Assembly: GCA_021324455.1 (NCBI GenBank) | Contig: JAJPJA010000013.1 | Coordinates: 62,001-126,000, forward strand | DNA: 64,000 bases | DNA from: Pseudomonadota bacterium | GTDB taxonomy: Bacteria > Desulfobacterota > Binatia > Binatales > Binataceae | Reading direction: 5' to 3' | Part shown: positions 18,710 to 24,313 of the stretch, one piece after another | Numbering within the stretch: the first letter of the stretch is position 1 | How the letters are laid out: each line of letters opens with the position of its first letter | Notes under the pieces: generated by a model | Seen by the model: only the letters and a program-made list of their open reading frames with translations | What the model was told of the DNA's origin: nothing | Database searches by the model: none | Made by a program: the position numbers and the translations under genes

Positions 18710-18745
18710 TTGCATAGATAATACGTCTCCATATATATGGAACCA
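18710..18745 (+). promoter_or_regulatory. Candidate promoter and ArsR operator of the arsenic operon
   Basis: CCATATATATGG (18729-18740) is a perfect 12-bp palindrome 4 bases before the ArsR-ArsC start codon, a likely ArsR-family operator. TTGCAT (18710-18715) and TATATA (18732-18737) are spaced 16 bases as -35/-10 boxes. With that -10, transcription would begin at or next to the ATG, and no Shine-Dalgarno is present, so the mRNA may be leaderless. Inference from sequence only. Confidence 0.45.
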
Positions 18746-19575
18746 TGACTAAGGCAGACATTATAGCGGCGTTGTCCGCGCTGGCGCAGGAGACCCGGCT
18801 GGACATTGTGCGGATGTTGGTGGAGCGCGGCCCGGCCGGCCTGCCGGCCGGAGAAATCGGCGACCGGCTGAGGTTGCCTTCTCCCACTTTGGCCTTTCAC
18901 CTCAATCAGCTCAGGCACGCGGCCCTGGTCAGCTCGCGCCGGCAGAGCAGGCTGATCATCTACAGCGCCAGATTCCGCACGATGAGCAGCCTCATCGAAT
19001 ATCTCAGGCGCAACTGCTGCACCGCGGCGCCGGCGCGCGGCGCGCCCGACGGCGCAGGCGCGACCGCCGAGCCGGGGCACAGGCTTAACGTGCTGTTCCT
19101 GTGCACGCACAACTCGGCGCGCAGCATCATGGCGGAGTGCGCGATGAACCGATGGGGCGGCGGGAGATTTCGCGCCTTCAGCGCCGGCAGCAAACCGCGC
19201 GGCGCGGTCCATCCGATCACGCTGCAGGTGCTCAAGGAGTTGGAATACGAAACCGCCGGACTCAAGAGCAAGGACTGGAATGAATTTGCGCGGCCTGACA
19301 GCCCGCCCCTCGATTTCGTCTTCACCCTCTGCGACCGCGCCGCCCAGGAGCCATGCCCAACGTGGCCGGGCCAACCGATCAGAGCCCATTGGGCGGTTCG
19401 GGATCCGGTCGCGGTCAGAGGCGCCTTCGCCGCCAGGCGGCGGGCATTCCTCAACGCCTGCAGCAATTTAGAGCAGCGGATTCGGATTTTCACCGCGCTT
19501 CCGGTCGAAACCCTGGAACGCTTCGCTTTGGAACGCTTTGTTGCGGAGATTGGGAAGTTGAACCTTGCGGCCTGA
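18745..19575 (+). CDS. ArsR regulator - ArsC arsenate reductase fusion (276 aa)
   Basis: Residues 1-92 form an ArsR/SmtB winged helix ([16 protein letters not shown], recognition segment [17 protein letters not shown]) ending in vicinal C91-C92, a plausible As(III) site. After a Gly/Ala/Pro linker, residues about 113-276 are a low-molecular-weight-phosphatase-type arsenate reductase with P-loop LFLC120THNSARS and the relay cysteines C196 and C204 in [16 protein letters not shown]. One chain could thus reduce As(V), sense As(III) and release its own operator. First gene of the arsenic island, 29 bases before GAPDH. Confidence 0.9.
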
Positions 19576-19604: not shown

Positions 19605-20651
19605 ATGCTCGTTCGGGTGGGAATCAATGGATTTGGCCGCATGGGACGGCTGGCGATGCGCGCCGCCTTCGGCATGCGGGAAATCAAAATCGTTCATATC
19701 AACGAGCTGAAGGGCGGCCCTGAAACCTCCGCGCACCTGCTGGAATTCGACAGCGTCCACGGCCGCTGGAGAATGCCGATAGCGGCGGACCCGCTGGGAC
19801 TGACGGTTGCAGGCGAGCGCATCGGCTACAGCAATCTCGCAACTCCGGGCGAGGTGCGGTGGGACCGGGCCGGCGTCGAGCTTGTCCTCGAATGCTCCGG
19901 CAGATTCCTTACGGCTGAAGCCCTTAAGCCGTATTTTGAACGGGGCGTTCGCAAAGTTGTGGTCGCGGCGCCCGTCAAACAGGGCGCGCTCAACGTGGTG
20001 ATGGGCGTCAACGACCATTTGTACGACCCGGCACTGCACCACATCGTCACCGCGGCCTCATGCACCACCAACTGCCTCGCACCGGTGGTCAAAGTGGTGC
20101 ATGAAAAACTGGGCATCCGGCACGGCGTCATCACCACGATTCATGACGTGACCAACACGCAGACGGTGGTGGATTTGGCGCACAAGGATCTGCGCCGCGC
20201 CCGCTCCGCGCTGATGTCGTTGGTGCCGACGACCACCGGTTCCGCCGCTGCCATCGGCCTCATCTACCCCGAGCTTAAGGGCAGGCTTAACGGAATGGCG
20301 GTCCGCGTTCCGCTGCTGAACGCTTCGCTGACCGATTGCGTGTTCGAGGTGGCGCGGCCGACGAGCGCCGCGGAGGTCAACCAATATTTGCGTGCCGCGG
20401 CTGAGGGGGAGCTGTCCGGCGTGCTGGGCTTCGAGGAGCGTCCGCTGGTCTCGGTTGACTTCCTCAACGACCCGCGCTCCTCCATCGTTGACGGCCCTTC
20501 CAGCATGGTCGTGGATGGCACGCAGGTCAAAGTGGCCGCCTGGTACGACAACGAATGGGGCTACGTCAACCGGCTGGTCGAACTGGCCGGCAAGGTCGCC
20601 GCCAGCTTGTCCCCGGCGGGGCGCGCAGCGGCCGGCGGTACCGGGCAATGA
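19605..20651 (+). CDS. ArsJ-associated glyceraldehyde-3-phosphate dehydrogenase (348 aa)
   Basis: Type [24 protein letters not shown] nucleotide fold, catalytic C153 in [21 protein letters not shown] and [11 protein letters not shown]. Adjacent to arsJ, it is expected to use arsenate in place of phosphate and produce unstable 1-arseno-3-phosphoglycerate for export, as known for ArsJ operons; this is an assignment from context. GAAGGAAA precedes ATG 19605. It ends in an ATGA overlap with arsJ, so translation is coupled. Confidence 0.93.
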
Positions 20652-21895
20652 CGACCGGCGTGCGCAATTACGCCCTGGTCACCGGGGCCTATTGGGGATT
20701 CACGCTGACCGACGGCGCCCTGCGGATGCTGGTGCTGCTGCATTTCGATCGGCTCGGATACAGCGCGGTCGAGATCGCCTTTTTGTTTCTGTTTTACGAA
20801 TTCTTCGGCGTCGTCACCAACCTGCTGGGTGGCTGGATTGCGGCCCGTTCCGGATTGAAGGCGACCCTGTACGGCGGCTTGCTGCTCCAAATCGCGGCGC
20901 TGATCATGCTCGCCTTCCTTCAGCCGGCCTGGACTCGAATGACCTCGGTCGCTTACGTGATGAGCGCGCAGGCCCTGTCGGGCATCGCCAAAGACCTGAC
21001 CAAGATGAGCGCCAAGAGCGCGATCAAAGTCGTGGTTGCGCAGGGCGAGGAAGGAGCGCTGTTCAAGTGGGTGGCCCGGCTGACCGGTTCAAAGAACGCA
21101 TTGAAGGGTGCGGGTTTCTTCATGGGCGCCGCTCTGCTGACGGCGCTGGGCTTTGTCGGCGCGCTGGCGGCCATGGCGGCCGGCCTGTTGATGGTGCTGC
21201 CGGGAACCGTAGTGGCGCTGCCGGCGGGCATGGGGAAAGCCAAATCGAAAGTCAAATTTACGGCTCTGTTTTCAAAAAGCTCGGCGGTGAACTGGCTGTC
21301 CGCGGCGCGCCTGTTTCTGTTCTGCGCGCGCGACGTGTGGTTCGTGGTGGGTTTGCCGGTGTTTTTGGCTTCGGCGCTTGGCTGGTCCTTCATGCAGGTG
21401 GGAGCGTTCGTCGCCGCGTGGTTCATCGGCTACGGCATGATTCAGGCGATCGTGCCGGAAATTCTGCGTCAATCCGGAGCGCGCGCGGGAGTCACGGGAG
21501 ACACCGCGCGCCTGTGGGCCTTTATCCTGATGGTCATTCCGGCCGCGCTGGCGGCCGCACTTGAACTGCGCGCCAGACCGTCGCCCGCGCTCATGATCGG
21601 TCTGGGCCTTTTCATGATCGTCTTCGCGATCAACTCCGCGGTCCACTCCTACCTGATTCTGGCTTACTCCGAAGACGACCAGGTGGCGACCAACGTCGGC
21701 TTTTATTACATGGCGAATGCCGGCGGCAGGCTTCTCGGCACTCTTTTGTCGGGTGTGGTCTTCGAATTGTACGGCTTTGTCGGCTGCCTGCTGGCGTCAG
21801 CTCTGATGGTGCTGGCCGCGAGCCTCCTGTCGTTCAATCTTCCGCGCGGTCGCGCAGTCCCGCTGACGGTGAAATTGACCGAGGCCGAGGCGTAA
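20648..21895 (+). CDS. arsJ: Organoarsenical efflux MFS transporter ArsJ (415 aa)
   Basis: Major-facilitator protein with about 12 hydrophobic segments. The N-terminus [21 protein letters not shown], the [19 protein letters not shown] loop and [18 protein letters not shown] are strongly ArsJ-like. It exports 1-arseno-3-phosphoglycerate made by the neighbouring GAPDH, giving arsenate resistance without reduction. The start overlaps the GAPDH stop (ATGA). Inner membrane. Confidence 0.93.
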
Positions 21896-21938: not shown

Positions 21939-23105
21939 GTGAAGAGCAAAGCCGGGTTGATATCGGGTGCCATGCTGTTTCTTGTCGCTCTGGGCGCCGT
22001 GCCGCCGCGTACGGCCACAGCGCAGGCGGATCGGCTGGTGATCAGCGGCGGCGGCTCGACCTTCGCCTATCCCATGTACAGGAAATGGATCGAGGAATAC
22101 GAGAAAGACCATCCCGCGGTGCATCTCACCTACGTGTCGAACGGTTCGGGCGCCGGCATCCACGATATCATGATGGGCACCGTCGATTACGCCGGCACCG
22201 ACGGTCCCCTGACGAAGACCCAGATGCTCGATTTCACCGCTCATCGCAACTGCGACGTGCTGCACTTTCCGCTGGCGATCGGAGCGGACGTGCCGATCTA
22301 CAACTTACCCGGGATAACCCGCGAGCTTAACTTCACCGCGCAGGCGCTGGCCGGCATCTTCCTGGGGAGCATCACGAAATGGAACGATCCGGAGATCGCC
22401 CAAGCCAATCCGCGCGCAGCGCTTCCCGACCATGAAATCGCCGCGGTTCATCGCCGGGACGGAAGCGGAACCACCTATGTGTGGACCGACTATCTATCCA
22501 AGGTCAGCTCAGACTGGCGCCAGCGCGCGGGGGCGGGAATCTCCGTCAGCTGGCCGGTCGGAGTCGCGGCCAAGGGCAATGAAGGCGTGGTCCAGGCGGT
22601 GGCGCGCATTCCCTATTCCATCGGTTACGTGGAGCTGACCTATGCGGTTGGCAAACGACTGCTCTATGGAACGGTAGCCAACCGCTCCGGCCGGTTCATC
22701 AAGGCCAATCTGGCAGGCCTTACGACGGCGGCCGCGGGTATCGCGGACCAGATGCCCGCGGACTTCAGGGTTTCGATTACCGACGCGCCAGGCCAGGATG
22801 CCTATCCGATCTCGAGCTTTACCTGGATGCTGGTTCCTTCGGTTATCACGGATTCGGCCAGGCGCGCCGCGATCATAGAGTTTCTGCAGTGGGGCCTTAC
22901 CAAAGGTCAGGACTATCTCGAACCCCTGTCCTATGCGCGGCTGCCGGGGGCGGTAATCGCCCGCGAACAAAAAGCCCTGGACGAAATCAAGCTGTCCAGT
23001 CAGGCGGATCAGCCCCGGACCGACGCTCTGGTTATGGAAATCCTTCCTTCGCGGATGGTTCAAGCGCAATGCCCATCAGGCCAAAGGAGCGGACGGCGAT
23101 TATGA
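21939..23105 (+). CDS. PstS-like phosphate/arsenate substrate-binding protein (388 aa)
   Basis: Periplasmic PBP-II protein of the PstS family. It has a signal peptide (about residues 1-28, hydrophobic AMLFLVALGAVPP, probable cut after TATAQA), the anion loops GGGSTFAYPMYRKW, VSNGSGAGIHDIMMGTVDYAGTDGPL and RRDGSGTTYVW. A GTG start is set by GGAG 8 bases upstream. No pstC, pstA or pstB gene is nearby, so it may serve a distant Pst transporter or act as an oxyanion scavenger. The last 15 residues are unusually basic and polar. Confidence 0.88.
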   Translation: MKSKAGLISGAMLFLVALGAVPPRTATAQADRLVISGGGSTFAYPMYRKWIEEYEKDHPAVHLTYVSNGSGAGIHDIMMGTVDYAGTDGPLTKTQMLDFTAHRNCDVLHFPLAIGADVPIYNLPGITRELNFTAQALAGIFLGSITKWNDPEIAQANPRAALPDHEIAAVHRRDGSGTTYVWTDYLSKVSSDWRQRAGAGISVSWPVGVAAKGNEGVVQAVARIPYSIGYVELTYAVGKRLLYGTVANRSGRFIKANLAGLTTAAAGIADQMPADFRVSITDAPGQDAYPISSFTWMLVPSVITDSARRAAIIEFLQWGLTKGQDYLEPLSYARLPGAVIAREQKALDEIKLSSQADQPRTDALVMEILPSRMVQAQCPSGQRSGRRL

Positions 23106-23387: not shown

Positions 23388-23403
23388 TTCTATGTTACTA
23401 GAA
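23388..23403 (+). promoter_or_regulatory. Candidate operator of the second ArsR gene
   Basis: TTCTA (23388-23392) and TAGAA (23399-23403) form a perfect inverted repeat with a 6-base spacer, 8 bases before ATG 23412 in an AT-rich stretch. The sequence differs from the CCATATATATGG site at 18729, so the two ArsR proteins probably do not share an operator. Confidence 0.4.
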
Positions 23404-23411
23404 TTATCGTA

Positions 23412-23849
23412 ATGAAGCGGCGCATCGAACAGCTCAGCGCGCTGGGACAGGAGGAGCGCCTCGCGATCTTCCGCTTGCTGGTGCGCGCCGGACCGCAGGG
23501 TAACTGCGTCGACCAAATCAAGCGCCGGCTCAAAACCCCGGGCTCCACGCTCTCCCACCACCTGGATACGCTGACGCGCTCGGGCCTGCTCAGCGCGCGC
23601 CGCGCGGGCCGCTTCATCCACTATGCGGTGAACTGGCGCGAGGCCGCCAATCTGATTCGATTTCTCACTGAAGACTGCTGCGCCGAGATGCACGCCAGGT
23701 TCTCGCCCGACCCGCAGACCGGCGCCGGCGTGGGGAATCCGTGCTGTTCACAGGCGGCCAAACGCCCGAGGCGGACACGTCGGGCTGCCGCGGCATCTGA
23801 AAAAGCCGAGGCACGGACCAGTTCGGAAAACGGCAACAGGAGGCCATGA
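23412..23849 (+). CDS. ArsR-family metalloregulator (145 aa)
   Basis: Winged-helix regulator: LGQEERLAIFRLLVRAGPQ, recognition segment TPGSTLSHHLDTLTRSGLL, beta-wing RRAGRFIHYAV. C89-C90 (TEDCCAEMH) and C32 could form an As(III) or methyl-As(III) site; a further CC pair lies in the basic C-terminal tail. It overlaps or abuts arsI downstream, so it likely controls the arsI unit. No strong Shine-Dalgarno precedes ATG 23412. Confidence 0.88.
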   Translation: MKRRIEQLSALGQEERLAIFRLLVRAGPQGNCVDQIKRRLKTPGSTLSHHLDTLTRSGLLSARRAGRFIHYAVNWREAANLIRFLTEDCCAEMHARFSPDPQTGAGVGNPCCSQAAKRPRRTRRAAAASEKAEARTSSENGNRRP

Positions 23850-23851
23850 TA

Positions 23852-24313
23852 ATGAATCGATTCCACGTTCATGTTCGCGTCGCCGACCTCGATGCGTCGG
23901 TGCGTTTCTATTCCAACCTCTTTGGGGAGCCGCCGGCGGTGCTCAAACCGGACTATGCGAAGTGGATGCTGGACGACCCGCGGGTCAATTTCGCGATCAG
24001 TTCCGGAGCGCAAACTCCCGCCATCGATCATCTGGGTTTTCAGGTGGACTCGGATGAACAACTGGCGGCGGTCGCGCAGCGGCTGACCGCGGCTGGAGAA
24101 CCGGTCGTGGAACAGGAAAACGCCGCGTGCTGCTACGCCCGCGGCAACAAGCGCTGGGTCAGCGACCCCAGCGGGATTCCATGGGAGACCTTTCACACGC
24201 TGGGCGCAAGCACCGTATACGGCTCTGACATTGTGGTTGTGAAAGAGCGGCAGCCGGCGCAGGCGTGCTGCGCGCCGGCCGCGGGCGGCTGCTGCGCCCA
24301 GTCCAAATCGTAG
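23852..24313 (+). CDS. arsI: ArsI-type C-As lyase, VOC family (153 aa)
   Basis: Vicinal-oxygen-chelate dioxygenase expected to cleave the C-As bond of trivalent methyl or aromatic arsenicals. Fe(II) ligands are visible as H5 (or H7) in RFHVHVRV, H60 in DHLGFQV and E112 in WETFHT. The substrate-binding C93-C94 pair lies in NAACCYARGNKRW, and the C-terminus is a Cys-rich tail (ACCAPAAGGCC). The start at 23852 is chosen because AGGAGG (23838-23843) is 8 bases away; ATG 23846 would be only 2 bases away. Overlap of reading units with arsR implies co-transcription. Confidence 0.9.
   Translation: MNRFHVHVRVADLDASVRFYSNLFGEPPAVLKPDYAKWMLDDPRVNFAISSGAQTPAIDHLGFQVDSDEQLAAVAQRLTAAGEPVVEQENAACCYARGNKRWVSDPSGIPWETFHTLGASTVYGSDIVVVKERQPAQACCAPAAGGCCAQSKS

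Follow-up and report, generated by a model that had tools for sequence, protein, structure and literature searches.

The question raised by this locus is how an operon that clears arsenate without reducing it can be made to respond to arsenate. The characterised As(III)-responsive ArsR repressors answer to arsenite, and the GAPDH-ArsJ system detoxifies arsenate unreduced. Because gapdh-arsJ works in this way while ArsR normally senses only arsenite, such an operon would have to bring along a converter or a receptor. In V. cholerae, which has no reductase-based arsenate resistance, As(V) induces the gapdh-arsJ operon and ArsR represses it; the authors of that study suggested that ArsR senses As(V) and stated the sensing of arsenate by this operon as an open question (PMC9601151). 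In this work, an ArsR-ArsC fusion at the head of a gapdh-arsJ operon was analysed in the window, which is the whole 64 kb stretch of DNA from a genome of the Binataceae family (G000).

The fusion gene (18745..19575, forward strand) is a single uninterrupted frame of 276 codons, and its 276-aa product begins with an ArsR winged helix and continues through a short linker into an ArsC of the LMW-phosphatase type. The Pfam domains HTH_20/HTH_5 (ArsR) and LMWPc were located at residues 13-64 and 116-247, respectively, all exceeding the curated cut-offs. The ArsR half (residues 1-92; 18745..19020, forward strand) was delimited by HTH_20/HTH_5 and by alignment to AfArsR of Acidithiobacillus ferrooxidans (PDB 6j05), which was also its best solved match (E 4e-18). 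The protein scored 56.3 bits with NF033788 (cut-off 55), 43.4 with PF12840 (27) and 23.1 with PF01022 (22), which places its winged helix among the ArsR/SmtB regulators. The linker (19021..19080, forward strand; about residues 93-112) is rich in Ala, Gly and Pro and has no cysteine. The ArsC half (19081..19572, forward strand; PF01451, 47.2 bits) carries the P-loop CTHNSARS, and its best solved matches were 8p5n, the nearest in the PDB and named a 'low molecular weight phosphatase family protein', and the ArsC structures of B. subtilis and pI258. No single chain spanning both the ArsR and ArsC domains was found among the solved structures searched. In the AlphaFold2 model (pTM 0.64), the pLDDT of the ArsC half was mostly >87 and that of residues 85-108 was <50. 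The model puts C91 where the last ArsR helix ends, the wing and the linker were poorly modelled, and the interdomain geometry was left loose; no interdomain contact was taken from this model. The first-pass annotation had described one polypeptide composed of ArsR and ArsC, which is borne out by the single frame and the Pfam domains. The five cysteines that it had numbered are all in place on the forward strand, with C91 (19015-19017) and C92 (19018-19020) in the ArsR half and C120 (19102-19104), C196 (19330-19332) and C204 (19354-19356) in the ArsC half. In most relatives the two genes are separate or overlap, which would favour an assembly error or a frameshift joining two overlapping genes. 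Such an artefact is practically ruled out because three genomes of other species in the family (G413, G420, and G424) carry an equal one-frame fusion with 60-71% identity, which makes four independent genomes, and comparable fusions occur in complete plasmids.

The ArsC half has the P-loop cysteine and the two distal relay cysteines of the thioredoxin-type ArsC (pI258 class), with C120 opening the CxxNSARS P-loop. C120, C196, and C204 were invariant across 53 aligned ArsC domains, and C120, R126, S127, C196, C204, and D220 were invariant in all the aligned fusions (22/22). The CxxNSAR P-loop, the two distal cysteines, and the HWxxxDP motif are shared with the ArsC of pI258 and B. subtilis (PDB 1jl3, 1jf8). 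On the other hand, the window domain is fused behind ArsR, its P-loop glycine is changed to His, and its TIGR02691 score is far lower, 51.9 bits against the equivalog cut-off of 174.3, so that PF01451 alone was exceeded. All four family fusions have His, Arg or Asn in place of the P-loop glycine (residue 122; window 19108-19110), which is kept in 46 of the 49 other ArsC domains aligned. In an independent fusion from Martelella, this residue is Arg.

The As(III) site of the ArsR half is less complete. The As(III) ligands of AfArsR are C95, C96, and C102 (PMC4287715). C91 and C92 of the window protein fall in the NCC motif of AfArsR and align with C95 and C96, whereas C102 is absent and an ArsC is appended. 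The As(III) cysteine pair read by the first-pass annotation is therefore present, but it forms an incomplete site, with the third AfArsR-type cysteine missing. Among the unfused ArsR relatives, the CC pair was found in 39/39 and the third cysteine in 36/39 within the stretch examined, and one further third cysteine may fall outside the trimmed stretch. The third cysteine is absent from all four family fusions; three of them, including the window protein, have two site cysteines (the other two read NCCAERPLKTA and NCCAGQADKPG), and the fusion of G424 has only one (NCRGRN). In the tally of 23 ArsR-ArsC fusions, the site is complete in 12, has two cysteines in four (the Martelella fusion has two) and one cysteine in two. 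No site cysteine is left in the fusions of Tistrella, Paracoccus MC1862, Neotabrizicola, Pseudosulfitobacter, and Rhodobacter capsulatus, and in the first four of these the entire ArsR half is cysteine-free. Six changes between a complete and an incomplete site are needed on the tree when the fused and split proteins are taken together. Unlike the cysteines of the As(III) site, those of ArsC were retained in every fusion checked.

A putative ArsR operator, CTCCATATATATGGAA (18727..18742), begins 18 bp before the ATG of the fusion. By sequence alone this palindrome is not significant, with one match in the window against 1.18 expected. In the genome-wide regulon scan the pattern was not enriched either (30 matches and 26 in the reversed control), and therefore its fixed position alone counts. 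At exactly -18 to -3, TTC-N10-GAA gave a mean of 5.0 of 6 matches when the starts of 34 arsR genes, both fused and split, were compared, and at most other offsets the same starts scored about 1-2.5 of 6. The putative operator overlaps a tentative -10 element (TATATA, 18732-18737), and a tentative -35 element (TTGCAT) is located at 18710-18715; the window promoter was not called by a consensus promoter scan. In many split relatives, the palindrome contains a TATA that is preceded, at a distance of about 17 bases, by TTGAC-like boxes. Judging from this arrangement, the transcript may be leaderless and the operator may lie on the -10 element. Perfect palindromes at -18 were also found before cysteine-less fusions, namely TTCCTGTATTCAGGAA in R. 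capsulatus and TTCCTAGATATAGGAA in Paracoccus, and because they are kept at this position, the cysteine-less fusions probably still bind DNA and have the appearance of repressors. A second operator-like palindrome, TTCTATGTTACTAGAA (23388..23403), precedes arsR2 and was matched in the palindrome scan of G000. The palindromes of G424 lie further upstream of the fusion, at 474 and 499 in L082, where three of the TTCC-N8-GGAA type were observed (L082:303-514) instead of one abutting the ATG.

The gene order in the window is arsRC-gapdh-arsJ-pstS-arsR2-arsI/cadI, with the fusion at the head and all genes on the forward strand. The ArsJ-associated GAPDH (19605..20651; NF033735, 548 bits, cut-off 450) and the MFS exporter ArsJ (20648..21895; NF033734, 568 bits, cut-off 400) are adjacent, with an ATGA overlap, and both scores identify a GAPDH-ArsJ operon. 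They are followed by the phosphate-binding protein PstS (21939..23105; TIGR00975, 350 bits), a second, unfused ArsR (ArsR2, 23412..23849; NF033788, 60 bits), and a VOC metalloenzyme of the ArsI/CadI family (23846..24313; NF041414, 130 bits, cut-off 116). The arsR-gapdh-arsJ order and arsenate as the substrate are common to the systems of P. aeruginosa DK2 and the V. cholerae var operon (PMC9601151), whereas the window regulator has its own ArsC, a varH-type phosphatase is missing from the cluster, and pstS is added. No Acr3 relative is encoded within the 64 kb window. The genome has one acr3, located on a 4.5 kb contig behind a separate arsR without an intervening arsC, and the fusion is the only LMW-type ArsC candidate in the genome apart from one 30-bit match. 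A second ArsR-PstS pair was observed on contig C144 (L098:6995-8494), away from the arsJ cluster; its ArsR ends KCGLEIGGADC and has no NCC motif.

One-frame fusions were found in 4 of the 41 genomes of the Binataceae family, ArsJ was found in exactly these four genomes, and all four fusions are directly upstream of gapdh-arsJ. The Fisher test for fusion and ArsJ gave a p of 1e-5, which treats related genomes as independent, while the four fusions represent one clade; the association is therefore argued from the separate origins of the fusion and not from this p. In the other matching genomes of the family, arsR and arsC are two genes that often overlap or have only a few bases between them, and acr3 is usually close by; in G416, a TAA separates the two halves. 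In the trees of either half, the four family fusions form one clade among the local split genes and the Rhodobacterales fusions form another. Because these clades are separate, the trees indicate at least two origins of the ArsJ-linked fusion, one in the Binataceae family and one in Rhodobacterales. Twenty-four plasmid arsJ loci, picked by hand and with Rhodobacterales over-represented, were inspected, and ArsR-ArsC was directly upstream of gapdh in 15 of them; the remainder comprised a divergent locus in Bosea, a reversed order in Pseudoalteromonas, and seven other arrangements. The coupling of the fusion to ArsJ is frequent and neither exclusive nor universal. It is not exclusive because the fusions of Shinella, Paracoccus sanguinis, and Martelella lie beside arsenite pumps without ArsJ. 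It is not universal because gapdh-arsJ stands without an ArsR or ArsC relative in its vicinity in three genomes that are more distantly related within the phylum. For V. cholerae, a fusion of the VC1068 type was considered as well; it finds no support in the nearest relative examined, Photobacterium GJ3, where an unfused ArsR frame of 141 codons precedes gapdh.

Other combinations of these domains and genes were observed as well. A reversed ArsC-ArsR fusion (L108:2654-3415; LMWPc 3-126, HTH_5 151-196) on a megaplasmid of Pseudoalteromonas shioyasakiensis heads an arsR-acr3-phosphatase-gapdh-arsJ cluster, and similar matches, each in a single piece, were obtained in Pseudomonas luteola and Vibrio campbellii. 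In G413, a frame of 319 codons about 1 kb before acr3 (L081:14197-15153) contains an LMW-type ArsC followed by a glyoxalase/VOC domain and is apparently an ArsC-ArsI fusion. On a plasmid of Martelella mediterranea (L155:2148-5295), a two-cysteine fusion is directly behind pstB-phoU and the gene of a winged-helix response regulator and adjoins an arsenic transporter gene, which represents another link between a fusion and phosphate genes.

ArsR-ArsC fusions as such are already known, and ArsRC2 of Microbacterium A33 is reported to be a negative regulator of its operon. The fusions were noted in a review, which suggested an advantage in sensing or detoxification if they are functional (PMC6205960), and they form two clusters in Actinobacteria, C4 and C7 (PMC6514093). 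The fusions of Leptospirillum ferriphilum, Microbacterium, Sinorhizobium, and Rhodococcus hold the same two domains in one chain (PMC6205960; PMC6514093), but the window fusion differs in its position directly upstream of gapdh-arsJ and in its incomplete As(III) site. No report of an ArsR-ArsC fusion coupled to gapdh-arsJ or of an eroded As(III) site was found in the open-access literature searched, and both features look new.

We hypothesize, with a probability of about one half, that the fusion is an autoregulatory repressor of arsRC-gapdh-arsJ in which the fused arsenate reductase gives the arsenate input. In the pI258 class, the last step of the relay forms a disulfide, accompanied by a large local rearrangement, and thioredoxin resets it. 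In the fusion, the ArsR half would bind the palindrome beside its own start codon, and arsenate would enter the P-loop of the ArsC half (C120/R126) and drive the C120-C196-C204 relay. Repression would be lifted by a change in the ArsC half, caused either by bound arsenate or by the C196-C204 disulfide with a conformational change, and/or by As(III) set free next to the ArsR half. Thioredoxin would then reset the switch. The fusion, the order of the genes, the association with ArsJ, the conserved ArsC active site, the eroded As(III) site, and the conserved operator-like site are observations, and DNA binding, catalysis, allostery, and thioredoxin coupling are what we infer for the fusion. The AfArsR variant C102S, which is left with two cysteines, shows essentially no response to inorganic arsenic (PMC4287715). 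Because of this loss, and because some fusions are without any site, the ArsC half is favoured as the input. There are also points against an input through ArsC. The P-loop glycine is lost in all four family fusions, several fusions accompany arsenite pumps and not ArsJ, and regulation may actually come from the unfused ArsR2 of the cluster. Moreover, the V. cholerae operon is inducible by As(V) and the ArsR before gapdh in Photobacterium is unfused, so a fusion is not required.

The self-contained arsenate sensor proposed by the first-pass annotation remains plausible, being backed by the coupling to gapdh-arsJ, the repeated origin, and the operator-like site abutting the gene. The route that it had proposed is a hand-off of the product, in which the ArsC half makes As(III), C91/C92 bind it, and the operator is released; the third sulfur would be supplied by the ArsC half or by the other subunit. 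C91/C92 are kept in 3/4 family fusions and the linker is short and, as modelled, apparently flexible. The whole triad in 12/23 fusions likewise speaks for it and against the input through ArsC, as these proteins may work by hand-off ancestrally or in general. However, the capture of As(III) by C91/C92 is weakened by the missing third ligand in 4/4 family fusions, by the single cysteine of G424, and by the five Rhodobacterales/Tistrella fusions that have none while the ArsC cysteines are always kept. The two-cysteine AfArsR mutant, which hardly responds to inorganic arsenic (PMC4287715), also argues against it, and for the window protein we consider the hand-off unlikely.

The same C102S mutant still responds to MAs(III) and aromatic arsenicals (PMC4287715), and the cluster contains a gene of the ArsI/CadI family. 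The ArsR half could thus sense a two-coordinate trivalent organoarsenical, e.g., MAs(III), through C91/C92, with the ArsC half as a tethered enzyme. This is improbable, since the genes directly downstream of the fusion deal with inorganic arsenate and a site of this kind is not available to the relatives that have a single cysteine or none. It is also improbable that the two domains act independently, so that the fusion merely secures co-expression, the ArsC half detoxifies arsenate for an Acr3 encoded elsewhere, and the operon is governed by ArsR2 or by ordinary As(III) control. Such a role would agree with the near-absence of other LMW-type ArsC candidates in the genome, with its arsR-acr3 pair lacking an arsC between, and with the acr3 divergent from the fusion in G420. 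On the other hand, it leaves unexplained the repeated fusion in ArsJ operons and the loss of As(III) cysteines with the operator-like site retained.

Under the favoured input through the ArsC half, the fused ArsC would solve the arsenate-sensing problem, as it either makes arsenite at the repressor or is the receptor itself. A cysteine-less fusion, e.g., that of the laboratory species R. capsulatus, responding to As(V) would mean that the fused ArsC is the receptor. Such a protein would also serve as a natural biosensor, built in one piece, that distinguishes arsenate from arsenite. We tentatively consider that the ArsC domain itself, through its occupancy or the C196-C204 disulfide, may control the winged helix as the arsenate receptor. 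It would mean that these fusions are the first As(V)-responsive ArsR repressors without an As(III) site, and that the disappearance of the As(III) cysteines from several lineages may be the record of a switch of the sensing domain.
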